This document shows, in pieces, positions 3,992 to 8,618 of a DNA stretch of 36,669 bases (positions within the stretch are counted from its first letter, which is position 1; every line of letters starts with the position of its first letter). This stretch comes from an uncultured Bacilli bacterium. GTDB taxonomy: Bacteria; Bacillota_I; Bacilli_A; RF39; UBA660. The notes below the pieces were generated by a model. The model had not been told where the DNA came from, searched no databases, and saw only the letters and a program-made list of their open reading frames with translations. The position numbers and the translations under genes are program-made. The stretch spans positions 1 through 36,669 of the forward strand of contig CALVIS010000010.1 of NCBI GenBank assembly GCA_944331805.1, given 5' to 3'.

Positions 3992-5056
3992 CTATAATAT
4001 TCTCCCATAAGTTTCTACATAAGGTTTCTTTAAATATTCTTTAAAGATTATTTTATTATAAATATCCATTTGTAATTTATAACACTTACCATGAGAACTA
4101 TGAGCAAGCCAAGAATTCCATTCAAGTACAGTTTTATCTAAATCAAGAAGCCCTCTTTCATAAAGAACATTCCAACGTTTCACTTTTCTTTTAACCTTTT
4201 TAATACTTCTTTTCCTAAGCAATCTATAACTCCCATATATTCTAAATCCACAAAAGTCAAGTCCCATCTTATTAGGATAATATCTACTCTTATTATTAAG
4301 TTCTAAATGAAGTACTTCTCTAACATATTTAGATATATCTAAAAAAACTTTCTTTGCTTCTTCTTTAGTCTTAACAAACATAATAAAGTCATCCATAAAT
4401 CTAACATAATATTTAATTTTAAGTACCTCTTTAACATAATGATCAAGTTCATTCATATAAATATTGGCAAAGAACTGCGAAGTATAATTTCCTATAGGAA
4501 GACCAACTTCTTCACCATCATTATATATAAATTCATAAGTTAAAGCTAAGAGTTTCTCATCTTTAATAAATCTCTTCAAAATATTATATAAAACATCTTT
4601 ATCTATATTATAAAAGAATCCTTTAATATCACATTTAACAATGTAATAAGTACCATATTTATTTTTCATACATCTCATATACTCTTGAGCCCTATCAACC
4701 GCTTTATGAGTTCCTCTACCTTCTATACAAGCATAAGAATCATTAATAAATCGTGGTACAACATAGGACTTAATAAATTCATAAACATACCATTGATGAA
4801 CAATTCTATCTACATAAGGTAAAGCTCTAATAACTCTTTCTTTTGGTTCATATATTTTAAAAGTTCTATATTTACCCATTTTATAAGTACCATTTTTAAG
4901 TTTCTTATAAAGATTAACTATATTAGTCTCTAAATCTATTTCAAACTTTAAAACCTCATAAGAATTTCTCTTAGTCTTACTAGCACGTTCATGAGCATCA
5001 AATAATGCTTCAATAGTTAAATGTTTATCAAACTCATTTCTTATCGTGTGAGGCAT
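3992..5056 (-). CDS. DGR reverse transcriptase
   Basis: This is the error-prone reverse transcriptase of a diversity-generating retroelement. It copies the template-repeat RNA and misincorporates opposite adenines; the cDNA then replaces the variable repeat in the target gene. The 354 residues carry RT motif A (CDIKGFF, 142-148), the DGR-type motif LPIGNYTSQ (186-194, where group II intron RTs have a QGxxxSP motif), the catalytic RFMDDF (219-224) and motif E GLDFCGFRI (265-273). There is no maturase or endonuclease domain. It overlaps the 3' end of avd by 16 nt, suggesting coupled translation. All catalytic residues are present, so it looks active. Confidence 0.96.
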   Translation of the reverse strand: MPHTIRNEFDKHLTIEALFDAHERASKTKRNSYEVLKFEIDLETNIVNLYKKLKNGTYKMGKYRTFKIYEPKERVIRALPYVDRIVHQWYVYEFIKSYVVPRFINDSYACIEGRGTHKAVDRAQEYMRCMKNKYGTYYIVKCDIKGFFYNIDKDVLYNILKRFIKDEKLLALTYEFIYNDGEEVGLPIGNYTSQFFANIYMNELDHYVKEVLKIKYYVRFMDDFIMFVKTKEEAKKVFLDISKYVREVLHLELNNKSRYYPNKMGLDFCGFRIYGSYRLLRKRSIKKVKRKVKRWNVLYERGLLDLDKTVLEWNSWLAHSSHGKCYKLQMDIYNKIIFKEYLKKPYVETYGRIL

Positions 5057-5397
5057 GATCTAATCCAACCTCCATTAAGATTAGAAATATTAGTAAGTTT
5101 CTTACTCCAGGCAGTATAATTCTTAGAATTAATATATTTTTTCTTATGAGAAACCCTAATTAACACTTTAACTATCTTAAGATTAGCATCAAGTTCATTC
5201 AAATATGAAAGTCTTTTTTTCTTATCAAACTCCTTCTGAGCATAAATAATATCTTTAAGTCCTTCATAAGTAACATTTTTAATATCTTGAGCTAAAGAAA
5301 AACGTTCACTCTTAGGATATTTCAAAAGAATCATAAGAGTATAATAAATAAGTTCAACATACTGTTTATAAATAACTAATGCTTCTAAATCATCCAT
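5041..5397 (-). CDS. avd: DGR accessory variability determinant (Avd), four-helix bundle
   Basis: Avd forms a pentameric, positively charged four-helix bundle that binds the reverse transcriptase and template RNA and is required for mutagenic homing in the Bordetella phage DGR. This 118-residue protein has the family pattern: an early YPKSERFSLAQDI block (28-40), many Lys and Arg residues, a central LDANLKIVKVLIR helix and the C-terminal AWSKKLTNISNLNGGW. Its start lies about 160 nt 3' of TR1 with a GGAGG ribosome site (complement of 5404-5408). The gene overlaps the reverse transcriptase gene. This matches the usual TR-avd-RT neighbourhood. Confidence 0.93.
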   Translation of the reverse strand: MDDLEALVIYKQYVELIYYTLMILLKYPKSERFSLAQDIKNVTYEGLKDIIYAQKEFDKKKRLSYLNELDANLKIVKVLIRVSHKKKYINSKNYTAWSKKLTNISNLNGGWIRSCLTR

Positions 5398-5415
5398 AGT
5401 AAACCTCCAAAATAA

Positions 5416-5740
5416 TTTTCTAGTATTCGACTCCTACTAACTAGAAAACATTACTTCATTATTTTATTCGTAAAACGAAAAGGAAAAAATTCTCTATGAT
5501 ATTTGTTTTTTATTAAATAATTAATAACTTAAACTTATCTCATATTATAGTCTCCCATCACGAGGCGGAACGAGTTGTTGTTGTTAGCATTACCATTATT
5601 CCAGGTGTTGAAGTTGAAAACACCCGCATTAGTATTATTGTTGTAGTTACCGCCGCGCACCAACCATATTGGAAAAGAAAATAGGACATATAAATTTTTC
5701 CCTATTTAAAATTTATCACTAAATTATTCAAATAACAACA
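5416..5740 (-). ncRNA. DGR template RNA cassette 1 (TR1 with flanking stems)
   Basis: Read on the minus strand the cassette has, in order: a conserved 14-nt element (5727-5740), a 5' stem AAATAGG/CCTATTT (5679-5685 with 5701-5707), TR1, a long-range stem (5542-5550 with 5494-5502, one mismatch), a TTCGT/ACGAA hairpin (5467-5479) and a 9-bp hairpin TTTTCTAGT/ACTAGAAAA (5416-5448). The avd ribosome site follows directly. Cassette 2 shares the same order and much of the sequence, and cassette 3 the same stems. In the Bordetella phage DGR the region 3' of TR is needed for cDNA priming; I infer the same here. Confidence 0.7.
5556..5667 (-). repeat. Template repeat TR1
   Basis: This 112-bp repeat matches the VR at 6762-6870 and is rich in AAC/AAT codons (14 in the VR frame), the usual design of a DGR template since AAY randomises without creating stops. 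Over the 72 nt nearest avd (5556-5627) it differs from the VR at nine sites, all adenines in TR1. In the remaining part there are five more adenine changes, one T-to-G change and a 3-nt length difference. It is not part of an open gene and lacks the stop-codon hairpin that follows the VR. It is the best candidate for the current or recent donor. Confidence 0.9.
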
Positions 5741-5744
5741 AAAA

Positions 5745-6050
5745 TTTTCTAGTATTCGACTCCTACTAACTAGAAAACATTACTTCATTGTTTTATTCGT
5801 AAAACGAAAAGGAAGAAATCCTCTATGATAAATGTTTTTTACTAAATTATTAATAACTTAAACACTTCTTATATCATAGTCTCCCATCACGAGGCGGAAC
5901 GAGCCATTGTTGTTAGCATTACCATTGGTGTTGTTGTGATTGAAGTTGAAAACACCCGCATACTCCCCAGGATTAGTATTCCAGTTACCGCCGCGCAACC
6001 AAAACAAAAAAACTATTAGGACTTATAAATTTCTCCCTAAAATAATTTTA
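5745..6050 (-). ncRNA. DGR template RNA cassette 2 (TR2 with flanking stems)
   Basis: A tandem copy of cassette 1. The 33-nt hairpin at 5745-5777 is identical to the one at 5416-5448, the TTCGT/ACGAA hairpin (5796-5808) is kept, and the long-range stem is a perfect 8 bp (5823-5830 with 5872-5879). The 5' stem is TTAGG/CCTAA near 6014-6040, where cassette 1 has ATAGG/CCTAT: the outer pair has changed on both sides. No promoter of its own is obvious, and a terminator at 6053-6086 lies just upstream, so a start must lie near 6040-6050 if it is transcribed separately. Confidence 0.6.
5885..6001 (-). repeat. Template repeat TR2, longer variant
   Basis: About 117 bp, sharing the invariant 3' block that encodes SFRLVM, the AGVFNFN core and the RGG start with TR1 and the VR. 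In the VR frame it encodes nine codons between RGG and AGVF (TR1 has seven, the VR six) and one extra codon between NFN and the NGNA motif, and it lacks the Val codon before RGG. It keeps several AAC/AAT codons, so it could serve as a template. No VR in this window matches it closely; it may serve a target elsewhere or be a decayed copy. Confidence 0.75.
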
Positions 6051-6052
6051 TC

Positions 6053-6086
6053 AAAAAAACAAAACAAAAAACAAGGCATAGCCTTG
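6053..6086 (-). terminator. Intrinsic terminator after template cassette 3
   Basis: On the minus strand the stem CAAGGC/GCCTTG (6072-6077, 6081-6086) with a 3-nt loop is followed by a long T-rich run (complement of 6053-6071). It lies between cassettes 3 and 2, so the TR3 transcript would end here as a separate RNA. Confidence 0.7.
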
Positions 6087-6231
6087 CATATGAATCCTGA
6101 TTTTCGACCAAATTAACTACTAACCATCATCATATCTCAAATTTACTTATAAAAGTAGGAATTAAATCTCTATAATATTAATTTTTTATTATATACATAA
6201 TAACTTAAATTATAAATATACCATAGTCTCC

Positions 6232-6340
6232 CATCACGAGGCGGAACGAGCTATTGCTGCGAGCATTACCATTGTACCAGGCGTTAAAGTAGAAAACACC
6301 TGCAGTAGAATCATTATTATAGTCACCGCCGCGCAACAAC
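6232..6340 (-). repeat. Template repeat TR3, adenine-poor variant
   Basis: This 109-bp repeat has the same flank as TR1 and TR2 and keeps the SFRLVM block and RGG start, but several positions that are AAC or AAT in TR1 are GAC, TAC, CGC or AGC here. It therefore looks partly randomised, like a former variable repeat or a worn template. It is not in an open gene: the frame meets a TAG about 15 codons upstream with no ATG. It also lacks the VR-side hairpin, so I class it as a template-type copy. Confidence 0.6.
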
Positions 6341-6425
6341 GCAAAATCAATTGCATACCACTGATATAGGATAGCCTAAAAAAATAATAAATTAATGATT
6401 TAATCCCTATCACCAAAAGATGACA

Positions 6426-6453
6426 ATTATATTGTACAAAATTAAATTTCAAA
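6426..6453 (-). promoter_or_regulatory. Candidate promoter of template cassette 3
   Basis: A perfect TATAAT (complement of 6426-6431) is preceded after 15-16 nt by TTGAAA or TTTGAA (complement of 6447-6453). The -35 match and spacing are poor. Its position just upstream of the conserved 5' stem, and the identical 14-nt element covering the -35 in cassette 1, make it plausible. Confidence 0.4.
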
Positions 6454-6557
6454 TAACAACAGAAATAATTATTATTCTTACAATTAAGCATATTAAAATT
6501 GTACATAGTTATTTTCCTCTTTTTGTCCATTCTTATAGTATCTTTAACAAATATGTC

Positions 6558-6593
6558 AAACACGGACCTTATCAATAGATAAGGTCCGTGTTT
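6558..6593. repeat. Perfect 16-bp inverted repeat between target gene and template cassettes
   Basis: Arms 6558-6573 and 6578-6593 pair perfectly around a 4-nt loop (AATA), with a core ACGGACCTTATC. On the plus strand it runs into T residues and would be a strong terminator, but no plus-strand gene leads into it. On the minus strand only TTT follows. It may insulate the template cassettes from the target gene, or be a cruciform or recombination site. Confidence 0.6.
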
Positions 6594-6736: not shown

Positions 6737-6762
6737 GAGTTAGCCCTTACGGGCTAGGACTC
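6737..6762 (-). promoter_or_regulatory. DGR target-site hairpin at the VR end and stop codon
   Basis: A perfect 6-bp inverted repeat TAGCCC/GGGCTA (6741-6746, 6751-6756) with a 4-nt loop holds the target stop codon in its loop. The arms extend by GAGT/ACTC (6737-6740, 6759-6762) across a 2-nt bulge. It starts exactly where VR/TR identity ends and is absent from all three TRs. In the Bordetella phage DGR a short hairpin or cruciform just downstream of VR is needed for efficient retrohoming. No T run follows, so it is not a terminator. Confidence 0.75.
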
Positions 6763-8618
6763 ATCACGAGGCGGAACGAGCTGAGGTAGTTAGCACCACC
6801 ATTACCCCAGGCGTTGAAGTTGAAAACACCCGCATCCGTATTACCGTAGCCACCGCCGCGCACCAACCATGGGTTCGTAGATGTAACCATTGTCTGATAA
6901 TCATTATACCAGCCTGCTGTCTCACTTAAGGCATGTGAATAACATACTCCTCCATTACATGCTTCACTTGCTGTACTACTTGTATATTTATTATAATATT
7001 TTGAATCTAATGTTAATGGTTCACCAAATCCACTACCACCTATAGTATCATTATAATTTCCCATTACATATTCCCAAGCACCACCTGACATATCATATAC
7101 TCCATAAATTGTTCCTGTACTACTAGCTCCTACTCCTTTTCCTGATTCTCCACTCTCATCTCTCGTATTATCATCATATCTATATTGACATCCTTGAGCT
7201 CCATTATTACTTGGTAAACCACTACTACATCCTGTTATATATTGGTTACTCTTATTTTGATATATCTCTTTATCTGCTCCTATAAAATTAACATTTCCTA
7301 ACTTTCCATATGCACTCTGTGATAAATATGCAACTGCTCCCCATTCATCATTTCTCATAGCATGTGAGTTCATACTTTGACTAAATCCATACATATTTCC
7401 TTCAGCACTCACCTTTAGTCCTACATTATAAATATTACTTACATTTATATTTCTCCAACTGCTTACATTTGGTTTTATTATCGGATCTAGTGTTGCACTA
7501 TTTGTACTGCTTTGTGTCGTATTACTTGTTTCAAACTTTCCTACCCATATTCCTGAAAGTTCTACATCTCCAAATGTAAATGCATCTGGTGTATACCAAT
7601 TCTTTGGTGCCTCAGTATTACTATATCTTGCTGTTCCTTTTTCTTTTACATCTGTTCCTATAAACTTAATATCTATTTCTCCTGGTAAAGCTCTTGTAGG
7701 TGTATCACTTAAATATACTCCTCTTTTACCATAATAATTATTTCCATCTTCACTTGTTATTGTATAAGAGTATCTTGGTATCCATACCCACATTGTCTCT
7801 ATATCATCCATATTAATTACAGTACCTACTCCTGCACTTTGATATGTTGATAATGTATCACTACTTACAGTAACAGCATTTGCCCATATTCCTCTTCCAT
7901 AGTTATACCACCCATTATCTTTATCTGTCTTTACCCAATTATAACCATCATGACGTACTGCAATCATATTACTATCCATCTTTGGCTCATTTACTTCTTC
8001 ATTATCTTGTATAAACTTATCTTCTGCTACCTGTTGTGTTGCAAATACTTTTAACTTACCTAAGAAAGCTTTTCCCATTGCATCATTTCCTGCATTTATA
8101 TTAATCCATACTCTTAATTCACAATCAACAGTTTCATTTGCATTTATTACACCATGATATATTACTGGTGAATCTGACAATGAACCCATATTATCTAAAT
8201 ATTGATAATCATTTCCTACTTTTACTTCAAATCTTACATCCTTAGAATCCAATAATTCACAAGGGCTTCCATCAGTAGTCTGACAATTATTGATTAACTC
8301 TTCATCATCTATTAATGATAATGAATAATATAAGTCTATATCACTCTTATTTACTAAAGAAAACTTATAAGGACTAGATACTTTACCCTCATCATCATAA
8401 GTAGGTATAGCATTTACTAATTGTATTCCTTCTGAAGCACTTTCATCTAATTCTAAATCAATAGTATCCACTAGTATACTTATATCTTTCTCTCCTTGTA
8501 ATGTAGTCATTAACCATGCATATGATATTCCAATAATAAGTAATAGAAGAATTATAATAATGCCAATAATAAATATCTTTTTATTATCTCTTATAATTCC
8601 ATTAATTTTATTTATCAT
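6747..8618 (-). CDS. DGR target: membrane-anchored protein with C-terminal FGE-like C-type lectin fold
   Basis: This 623-residue protein is the variable product of the DGR. Residues 1-14 are basic, 15-34 form a signal anchor or uncleaved signal peptide ending in SYAW, and a beta-rich domain (about 38-215) resembles the N-terminal part of TasA/camelysin-like surface proteins. From about 270 (MWVWIPRYSY) to the end the sequence follows the formylglycine-generating enzyme/sulfatase-modifying fold: YDMSGGAWEYVMGNY, then WLVRGG and SFRLVM. Such folds are used by many DGRs to display variable residues. The VR covers residues 584-619. Likely roles are binding host, phage or neighbour ligands outside the cell; the ligand is unknown. 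The ribosome site GGGAGG lies rather far (about 12 nt) from the ATG. Confidence 0.92.
   Translation of the reverse strand: MINKINGIIRDNKKIFIIGIIIILLLLIIGISYAWLMTTLQGEKDISILVDTIDLELDESASEGIQLVNAIPTYDDEGKVSSPYKFSLVNKSDIDLYYSLSLIDDEELINNCQTTDGSPCELLDSKDVRFEVKVGNDYQYLDNMGSLSDSPVIYHGVINANETVDCELRVWININAGNDAMGKAFLGKLKVFATQQVAEDKFIQDNEEVNEPKMDSNMIAVRHDGYNWVKTDKDNGWYNYGRGIWANAVTVSSDTLSTYQSAGVGTVINMDDIETMWVWIPRYSYTITSEDGNNYYGKRGVYLSDTPTRALPGEIDIKFIGTDVKEKGTARYSNTEAPKNWYTPDAFTFGDVELSGIWVGKFETSNTTQSSTNSATLDPIIKPNVSSWRNINVSNIYNVGLKVSAEGNMYGFSQSMNSHAMRNDEWGAVAYLSQSAYGKLGNVNFIGADKEIYQNKSNQYITGCSSGLPSNNGAQGCQYRYDDNTRDESGESGKGVGASSTGTIYGVYDMSGGAWEYVMGNYNDTIGGSGFGEPLTLDSKYYNKYTSSTASEACNGGVCYSHALSETAGWYNDYQTMVTSTNPWLVRGGGYGNTDAGVFNFNAWGNGGANYLSSFRLVMSPSP
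6762..6870 (-). repeat. Variable repeat (VR) of the DGR target gene
   Basis: This 109-bp segment encodes WLVRGG to SFRLVM at the C-terminus of the target protein. Compared with TR1, residues 590, 592, 595, 603, 605, 608, 611, 612 and 613 are replaced (now Gly, Gly, Asp, Ala, Gly, Gly, Tyr, Leu, Ser) where TR1 encodes Asn or Thr. Fixed residues (RGG, AGVFNFN, SFRLVM) have codons unchanged from TR1. The end nearest the stop (GTGATG) is the expected initiation site of mutagenic homing and directly abuts the hairpin at 6737-6762. Confidence 0.9.

Follow-up and report, generated by a model that had tools for sequence, protein, structure and literature searches.

A diversity-generating retroelement with a tandem array of template units, very likely a template bank, in uncultured Bacilli

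The usual picture of a diversity-generating retroelement (DGR) is of a single template that randomises a single scaffold. The locus described here lies in a 36,669-nucleotide stretch of DNA from an uncultured Bacilli bacterium (hereafter the window, meaning the whole stretch analysed) and carries three template-repeat (TR) units beside a single reverse transcriptase (RT). In the absence of transcription or population data, a DGR with a tandem bank of template units is very likely the best explanation of this arrangement. The array itself, its spacer RNAs, the conservation of reading frame, the assignment of variable repeats (VRs) to units and the divergence of VRs between near-identical loci are backed by sequence. 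The independent transcription of units, the choice of the cell among them and a recognition role for the target protein are inferred.

On the - strand of the window, the order is the target gene with its VR, TR3, TR2, TR1, avd and RT, and the individual elements are as follows.

3992-5056, - strand: DGR-type reverse transcriptase, 354 aa; RVT_1 1.3e-17, phrog_1423 3.9e-113
5041-5397, - strand: avd, accessory variability determinant; bAvd PF22296 3.7e-22, phrog_3206 9.7e-27
5408-5554, - strand: spacer RNA of unit 1, by covariance model; Rfam RT-14 29.4 bits, below gathering
5556-5657, - strand: TR1 core, 102 nt; adjoins avd, closest template of the window's VR
5710-5738, - strand: promoter-like element of unit 1, TTGTTA-N17-TAAATT, 7 nt before GGGA
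5737-5883, - strand: spacer RNA of unit 2, by covariance model; full-length Rfam RT-14 alignment at 34.0 bits, short of the gathering cut-off
5885-5995, - strand: TR2 core, 111 nt; another backbone, 9 nt longer
6071-6087, - strand: intrinsic-terminator-like stem after unit 3; analogous stems follow the first unit in relatives (alignment)
6088-6230, - strand: spacer RNA of unit 3, class 2, divergent; model R1, 52.2 bits, E 5.4e-7
6232-6333, - strand: TR3 core, 102 nt; first unit in transcription order
6532-6559, - strand: possible array promoter, TTGACA-N16-TATAAG, spotted by eye
6558-6593, strand unassigned: 16-pair terminator-like stem separating the target gene from the array, flanked on either side by T runs
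6741-6756, - strand: hairpin TAGCCC GTAA GGGCTA after the VR, stop codon in the loop
6762-6870, - strand: VR, the fourth copy of the TR core, in the target gene
6747-8618, - strand: target gene, ORF of 623 aa; membrane anchor at the N-terminus, VR in the C-terminal domain

The RT ORF contains the motif IGNYTSQ, which is generally known as a mark of DGR-type enzymes. Its best sequence match in the PDB is 8ub7 (E 1.9e-45), with group II RTs far weaker, and no relatives of it were found in the viral contigs searched. Avd reaches 80.5 bits against NF033474 (cut-off 80), and a sequence search against the PDB returned no significant match for it. The hairpin that follows the VR, a feature whose role is known from the target hairpin of BPP-1 (PMC3240598), has an equivalent in 9/9 array-adjacent VRs. 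A DGR-type RT, Avd, an adenine-specific TR/VR pair, and a VR at the 3' end of the target with its hairpin are thus all present, and by every testable feature except the fold of the target the locus is a member of the DGR kind, with A-to-N cDNA synthesis and homing inferred from sequence alone. The C-type-lectin fold is only weakly indicated: the FGE-sulfatase (C-type-lectin-like) match of the C-terminal part (E 0.0074) is below the cut-off, and the AlphaFold model, which rests on an alignment of only seven sequences, has a pLDDT of 37. The possible array promoter was missed by an automated scan, whose rule requires a final T. A second, unrelated DGR was observed elsewhere in the same genome (L042, G000:C17, 5255-9170), with the usual single TR (~7081-7175), one VR (~6800-6895), TR/VR differences of the adenine type, an avd-like ORF and an RT ~30-39% identical to that of the window.

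A repeat search places head-to-tail direct repeats at 5411, 5740 and 6087, spaced by 329 and 347, a set far above chance. Over 187 nt, copy 2 shares 91% and copy 3 66% identity with copy 1, and the core recurs a fourth time at 6762, within the target gene. The spacer covariance model, trained on a set that included window spacers 1 and 2 and not spacer 3, finds exactly three copies in the window. The original prediction of three tandem TR repeats lying head to tail upstream of avd therefore held in the repeat search, the cores and the covariance model alike. The cores share both ends, and the TR3 spacer belongs to a divergent second class. The claim that the copies differ in adenine positions was borne out in part: the cores also differ in their middle backbone, length and Asn-codon content, and differences solely at adenines can be rejected. 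The locus does not have the usual layout of one TR per RT, with three TR units in the window and up to 26 in a relative.

The comparison set comprised nine RT-bearing loci of the same genus, from records named Ca. Onthousia, uncultured Bacilli or Tenericutes, all of them MAG contigs; the taxonomic placement of the window is itself inferred from relatives. Tandem units are found in 9/9 of these loci, from at least two to 26. Each array-adjacent VR was aligned to all units, and the counts and donors are listed below (unit number/units in array).

G025: 3 units; donor 3/3, zero non-A changes
G015: 6 units; donor 2/6, zero non-A changes
G012: 5 units; donor 3/5, zero non-A changes
G014: 25 units by motif, 26 by RNA model, within ~9 kb; donor 19/25 (motif count), zero non-A changes
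G002: 5 units and one unlinked; donor 2/5, one non-A change
G009: 6 units; donor 6/6, one non-A change
G028: 5 units; VR an unmutated copy of the null unit described below, 0/13 A changed
G032: 11 units; VR a null-unit copy, 1/9 A changed (A>G), no other substitution, one extra T in a T run
G004: at least 2 units (contig end)

The donor unit varies among species: for 8/9 array-adjacent VRs, one unit fits with no more than one non-A change, and the next-best unit of the same genome shows at least 7, often with gaps. Pooled over six gap-free VR-donor pairs, 68/165 adenines are changed against 2/459 other bases (Fisher p 3e-42), the spectrum being A>G 52, A>T 14 and A>C 2. The loci of G028 and G009 are especially telling, being identical over 500/500 nt upstream of the VR and 296/301 downstream and sharing three identical TR units. 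Despite this, the VR of G028 comes from the null unit and that of G009 from the avd-proximal unit. Different array units have thus served as VR donors, as the sequences show; switching in living populations has not been shown.

Some further elements were noted in these genomes. One TR-spacer pair of the longest array (G014) was detected solely via its RNA. In G002, a complete TR-plus-spacer unit (G002:C9, L107 1528-1788, - strand) lies remote from any array or RT there as an unlinked template, and an ATPase-like ORF of 442 aa sits between two array units (L062 1542-2870). In G009, the DGR RT is split inside its YMDD motif by an insert (L065 6667-8585) that encodes a group II-intron-like RT ORF (7180-8496). 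Remote VR-like sites are numerous in the genus (L101-L106, L108-L118, L120-L124, L128-L135). A genome frequently holds several, many of the sites lie close to the end of a contig, and most match no assembled unit of their own genome; for a site in G008 (C5), the match is a unit from a different species (G002), from which it departs by 18 A changes and one further change. The remote VRs of G009 match no unit of G009, which implies either loss of templates or additional sources.

Outside the genus but within the family, where RTs are ~50-66% identical, ~20 loci show just one TR/VR pair, with no more than one spacer RNA. Set against nine array-bearing loci within the genus, this makes the array look like an innovation of this genus, which is likely rather than settled given an incomplete outgroup survey in which several contigs end near the RT.

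The VR of the window itself aligns best to TR1, with 14/32 A changed, one non-A change (T>G) and a 3-nt gap (one codon missing). As the alignment to TR1 is the best and yet imperfect, the donor was TR1-like, perhaps a variant since lost. The locus of G025 is 99% identical to that of the window over 6.4 kb, and the differences fall at 18/109 positions of the VR and 33/6287 of everything else, with one SNP across the array-avd-RT stretch; by this comparison, the VR evolves fast. The TR 3' motif occurs in only four copies in the genome of the window (1.37 Mb, 108 contigs, 68.7% complete), namely the three TRs and the VR. A remote VR using TR2 or TR3 was sought in this genome and rejected, none being found at that completeness. 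A paralogue on G000:C6 was likewise rejected as a second VR of the array, its 3' end lacking the TR motif.

Ordinary units appear to be kept intact: 65/65 (60 distinct) have a length that is a multiple of 3 and no in-frame stop, where shuffles predict 14% open. Each has its own spacer of ~145 nt with invariant blocks. Three spacer helices are backed by compensatory changes, with 97% of cells paired and 6 pairs changed on both sides; 0/500 shuffles scored as high, and slid controls reached at most 59% paired. The structure tested was one named by hand, and RNAalifold on all 190-nt spacers gave only a weak consensus on an alignment that extended past the RNA. The RNA model is home-made, its E-values are rough, and the training units match by construction. 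Against Rfam RT-14 (RF02921), relatives score up to 43.4 and 46.1 bits with full-length alignments, short of the gathering threshold of 48.1 bits, and the spacer is RT-14-like without being filed as a member. RT-14 alignments to DGR spacers after TRs were observed at 5412-5505 and 5741-5879 of the window and at 7767-7905 of L151, a one-TR relative, and it is possible that RT-14 is a DGR template-spacer RNA. The spacer of BPP-1 adopts a fold that brings in RT-Avd, and it also provides the adenine used for priming (PMC12875486). Since every unit here has a spacer of its own, each is by this analogy likely a self-sufficient template. A promoter-like TTG-N16-18-TA...T lies upstream in 45/51 ordinary units that have a GGGA landmark before the TR (~9 expected), mostly 5-8 nt from it. 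The control was a simple mononucleotide shuffle of AT-rich DNA, and the element before the TR2 of the window overlaps a terminator tail and is doubtful. Independent transcription of the units is inferred from these elements, without transcription data.

The original prediction also held that a single VR, or several elsewhere, could be rewritten from different templates. The relatives, including G028 and G009, support this for one VR, with only a TR1-like template linked in the window; the further VRs elsewhere were not found in its genome, within the completeness given. The prediction would have been refuted by RNA data showing TR1 alone transcribed, with the extra units decaying and no VR derived from them. 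Decay of the extra units is not seen, given the 65 open and in-frame units, and VRs of relatives derive from many array positions, while none from the TR2 or TR3 of the window was found.

The first array position of seven relatives holds a different element, here called the null unit, with an A-poor core (7-13 A in 92-96 nt) that always contains in-frame stops, followed by a spacer of the second class and then a terminator-like stem. Its middle is recognisably related across species, its 3' flank matches that of the VR ~10 nt further than ordinary TRs in 5/7, and a hairpin stands at the hairpin position of the VR in 4/7. The target frame of two genomes out of nine, G028 and G032, stays open until it reaches the null copy in the VR, stops there and leaves the target truncated. 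In the window and G025, the slot holds TR3, an open core with a class-2 spacer. TR3 differs from TR1 by 17 mismatches, 11 at TR1 adenines and 1 at TR3 adenines (p 0.006); with 11 adenines lost and one gained, as expected of a mutagenised copy, TR3 resembles an adenine-mutagenised copy of TR1 written into the slot, and it is possible, though inferred, that template slots may be rewritten. Adenine loss is seen in many units. Because 32/213 non-AAY codons have a purine third base, a general archiving of VRs into TR slots remains a mere possibility, of which TR3 is the best case.

In the proposed mechanism, a unit would consist of a TR core, then its own structured spacer RNA and usually its own promoter-like element. 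RT and Avd would reverse-transcribe a single unit's RNA with errors at adenines, and the resulting cDNA would take the place of the VR in the target gene by homing at the 3' end, which is conserved, together with the hairpin. As units differ in backbone and length, homing would swap the scaffold in addition to randomising codons, and over time any unit may act as donor.

Within the window, what speaks against such a bank is that TR1 alone is tied to the VR, and imperfectly. This fits passive tandem duplication, with one active unit per genome and the rest decaying copies, as do the several units of G014 that are short of many adenines or have an altered 3' end and the pair there found through RNA only. 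However, the intact frames of all ordinary units despite strongly different backbones, the retention in every unit of a spacer RNA with compensatory changes, the donors at many array positions and the difference in donor between sister loci make this very unlikely. Plain homologous recombination (gene conversion) between array and VR, with reverse transcription merely occasional, would account for the unmutated null copy in G028, yet all six coding VRs show strongly adenine-specific changes against their donors, so RT copying was involved there, and the null copy of G032 carries one A>G and no other substitution; gene conversion is thus unlikely as a general account. An assembly artefact, with repeats collapsed or chimeric, deserves consideration since all loci are MAG contigs and several are broken beside repeats. 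It was rejected and is all but excluded, as arrays with different units recur across several independent MAG projects and the units common to G028 and G009 are identical.

As an addition to the template bank, the null unit could be a programmed OFF template whose core, once copied into the VR, silences the target; retention of the 3' end and hairpin would make this reversible. The evidence for this inference is finely balanced. Its constant first position and A-poor, stop-containing core in seven relatives, the VRs copied from it in two genomes with the target open up to there, and the extended flank match speak in favour. On the other hand, only two OFF states are seen and none among remote VRs, the null unit is absent from the lineage of the window, where an open core occupies the slot, the seven null units, being mutually homologous, do not count as independent cases, and four carry the hairpin as the VR does, which would also suit an acceptor slot. 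The rival reading takes the first unit for such an acceptor or for a relic. A bolder reading, which we consider less likely than not, is that the bank unites phase and antigenic variation: up to 26 separately expressed templates would be available for the cell to choose from, a dedicated A-poor OFF template would write a stop, and the bank itself would be rewritable, as TR3 in the first slot bears the signature of adenine loss, with variants archivable as new templates.

The template bank shares much with known systems. Like the window, the BPP-1 DGR (PMC3240598, PMC12875486) has RT and Avd, adenine-specific TR-to-VR change, a structured spacer after the TR and a VR followed by a hairpin whose loop has 4 nt; it has one TR, whereas the present arrays hold 3 to 26 units, every one of them has a spacer RNA to itself, and relatives add a null unit. 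More than one TR per DGR has also been reported by MetaCSST (PMC6642488), for example in Stenotrophomonas SKA14 with two TRs and six VRs, and the survey implies more than one in 55/271 multi-VR DGRs. The sections of that paper bearing on multi-TR DGRs, however, describe no tandem TR-plus-spacer array, per-unit promoters, null template or single VR traced to alternative TRs. In Treponema denticola (PMC4891356), several TR types per species and CLec-type targets are found as here, but there the types are divided among strains, and a DGR has a single one along with many VRs, unlike the array. In silent-cassette antigenic variation, such as pilS/pilE of Neisseria, an expressed site is rewritten from alternative donors, possibly with an OFF donor. 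Only the logic is alike, for transfer here is marked at adenines by mutagenic reverse transcription and the donors have their own RNA elements. A tandem TR array was not found in the open-access literature searched (subscription papers and preprints were outside the search), and within that scope the number of templates, the unit architecture and the null unit are likely new.

Surveys that assume one TR per RT would overlook template choice. Dozens of units beside one RT provide natural replicates for studying what RT and Avd require of a template RNA, RT-14, a candidate RT-associated RNA family, may be linked to the DGR spacer, and the apparent OFF template opens DGR control to direct testing. 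With a bank of self-contained templates, one element could alter both scaffold and residues. Since the VRs of different species trace to different templates, it seems that the cell can exchange, randomise and perhaps even turn off a part of a protein.
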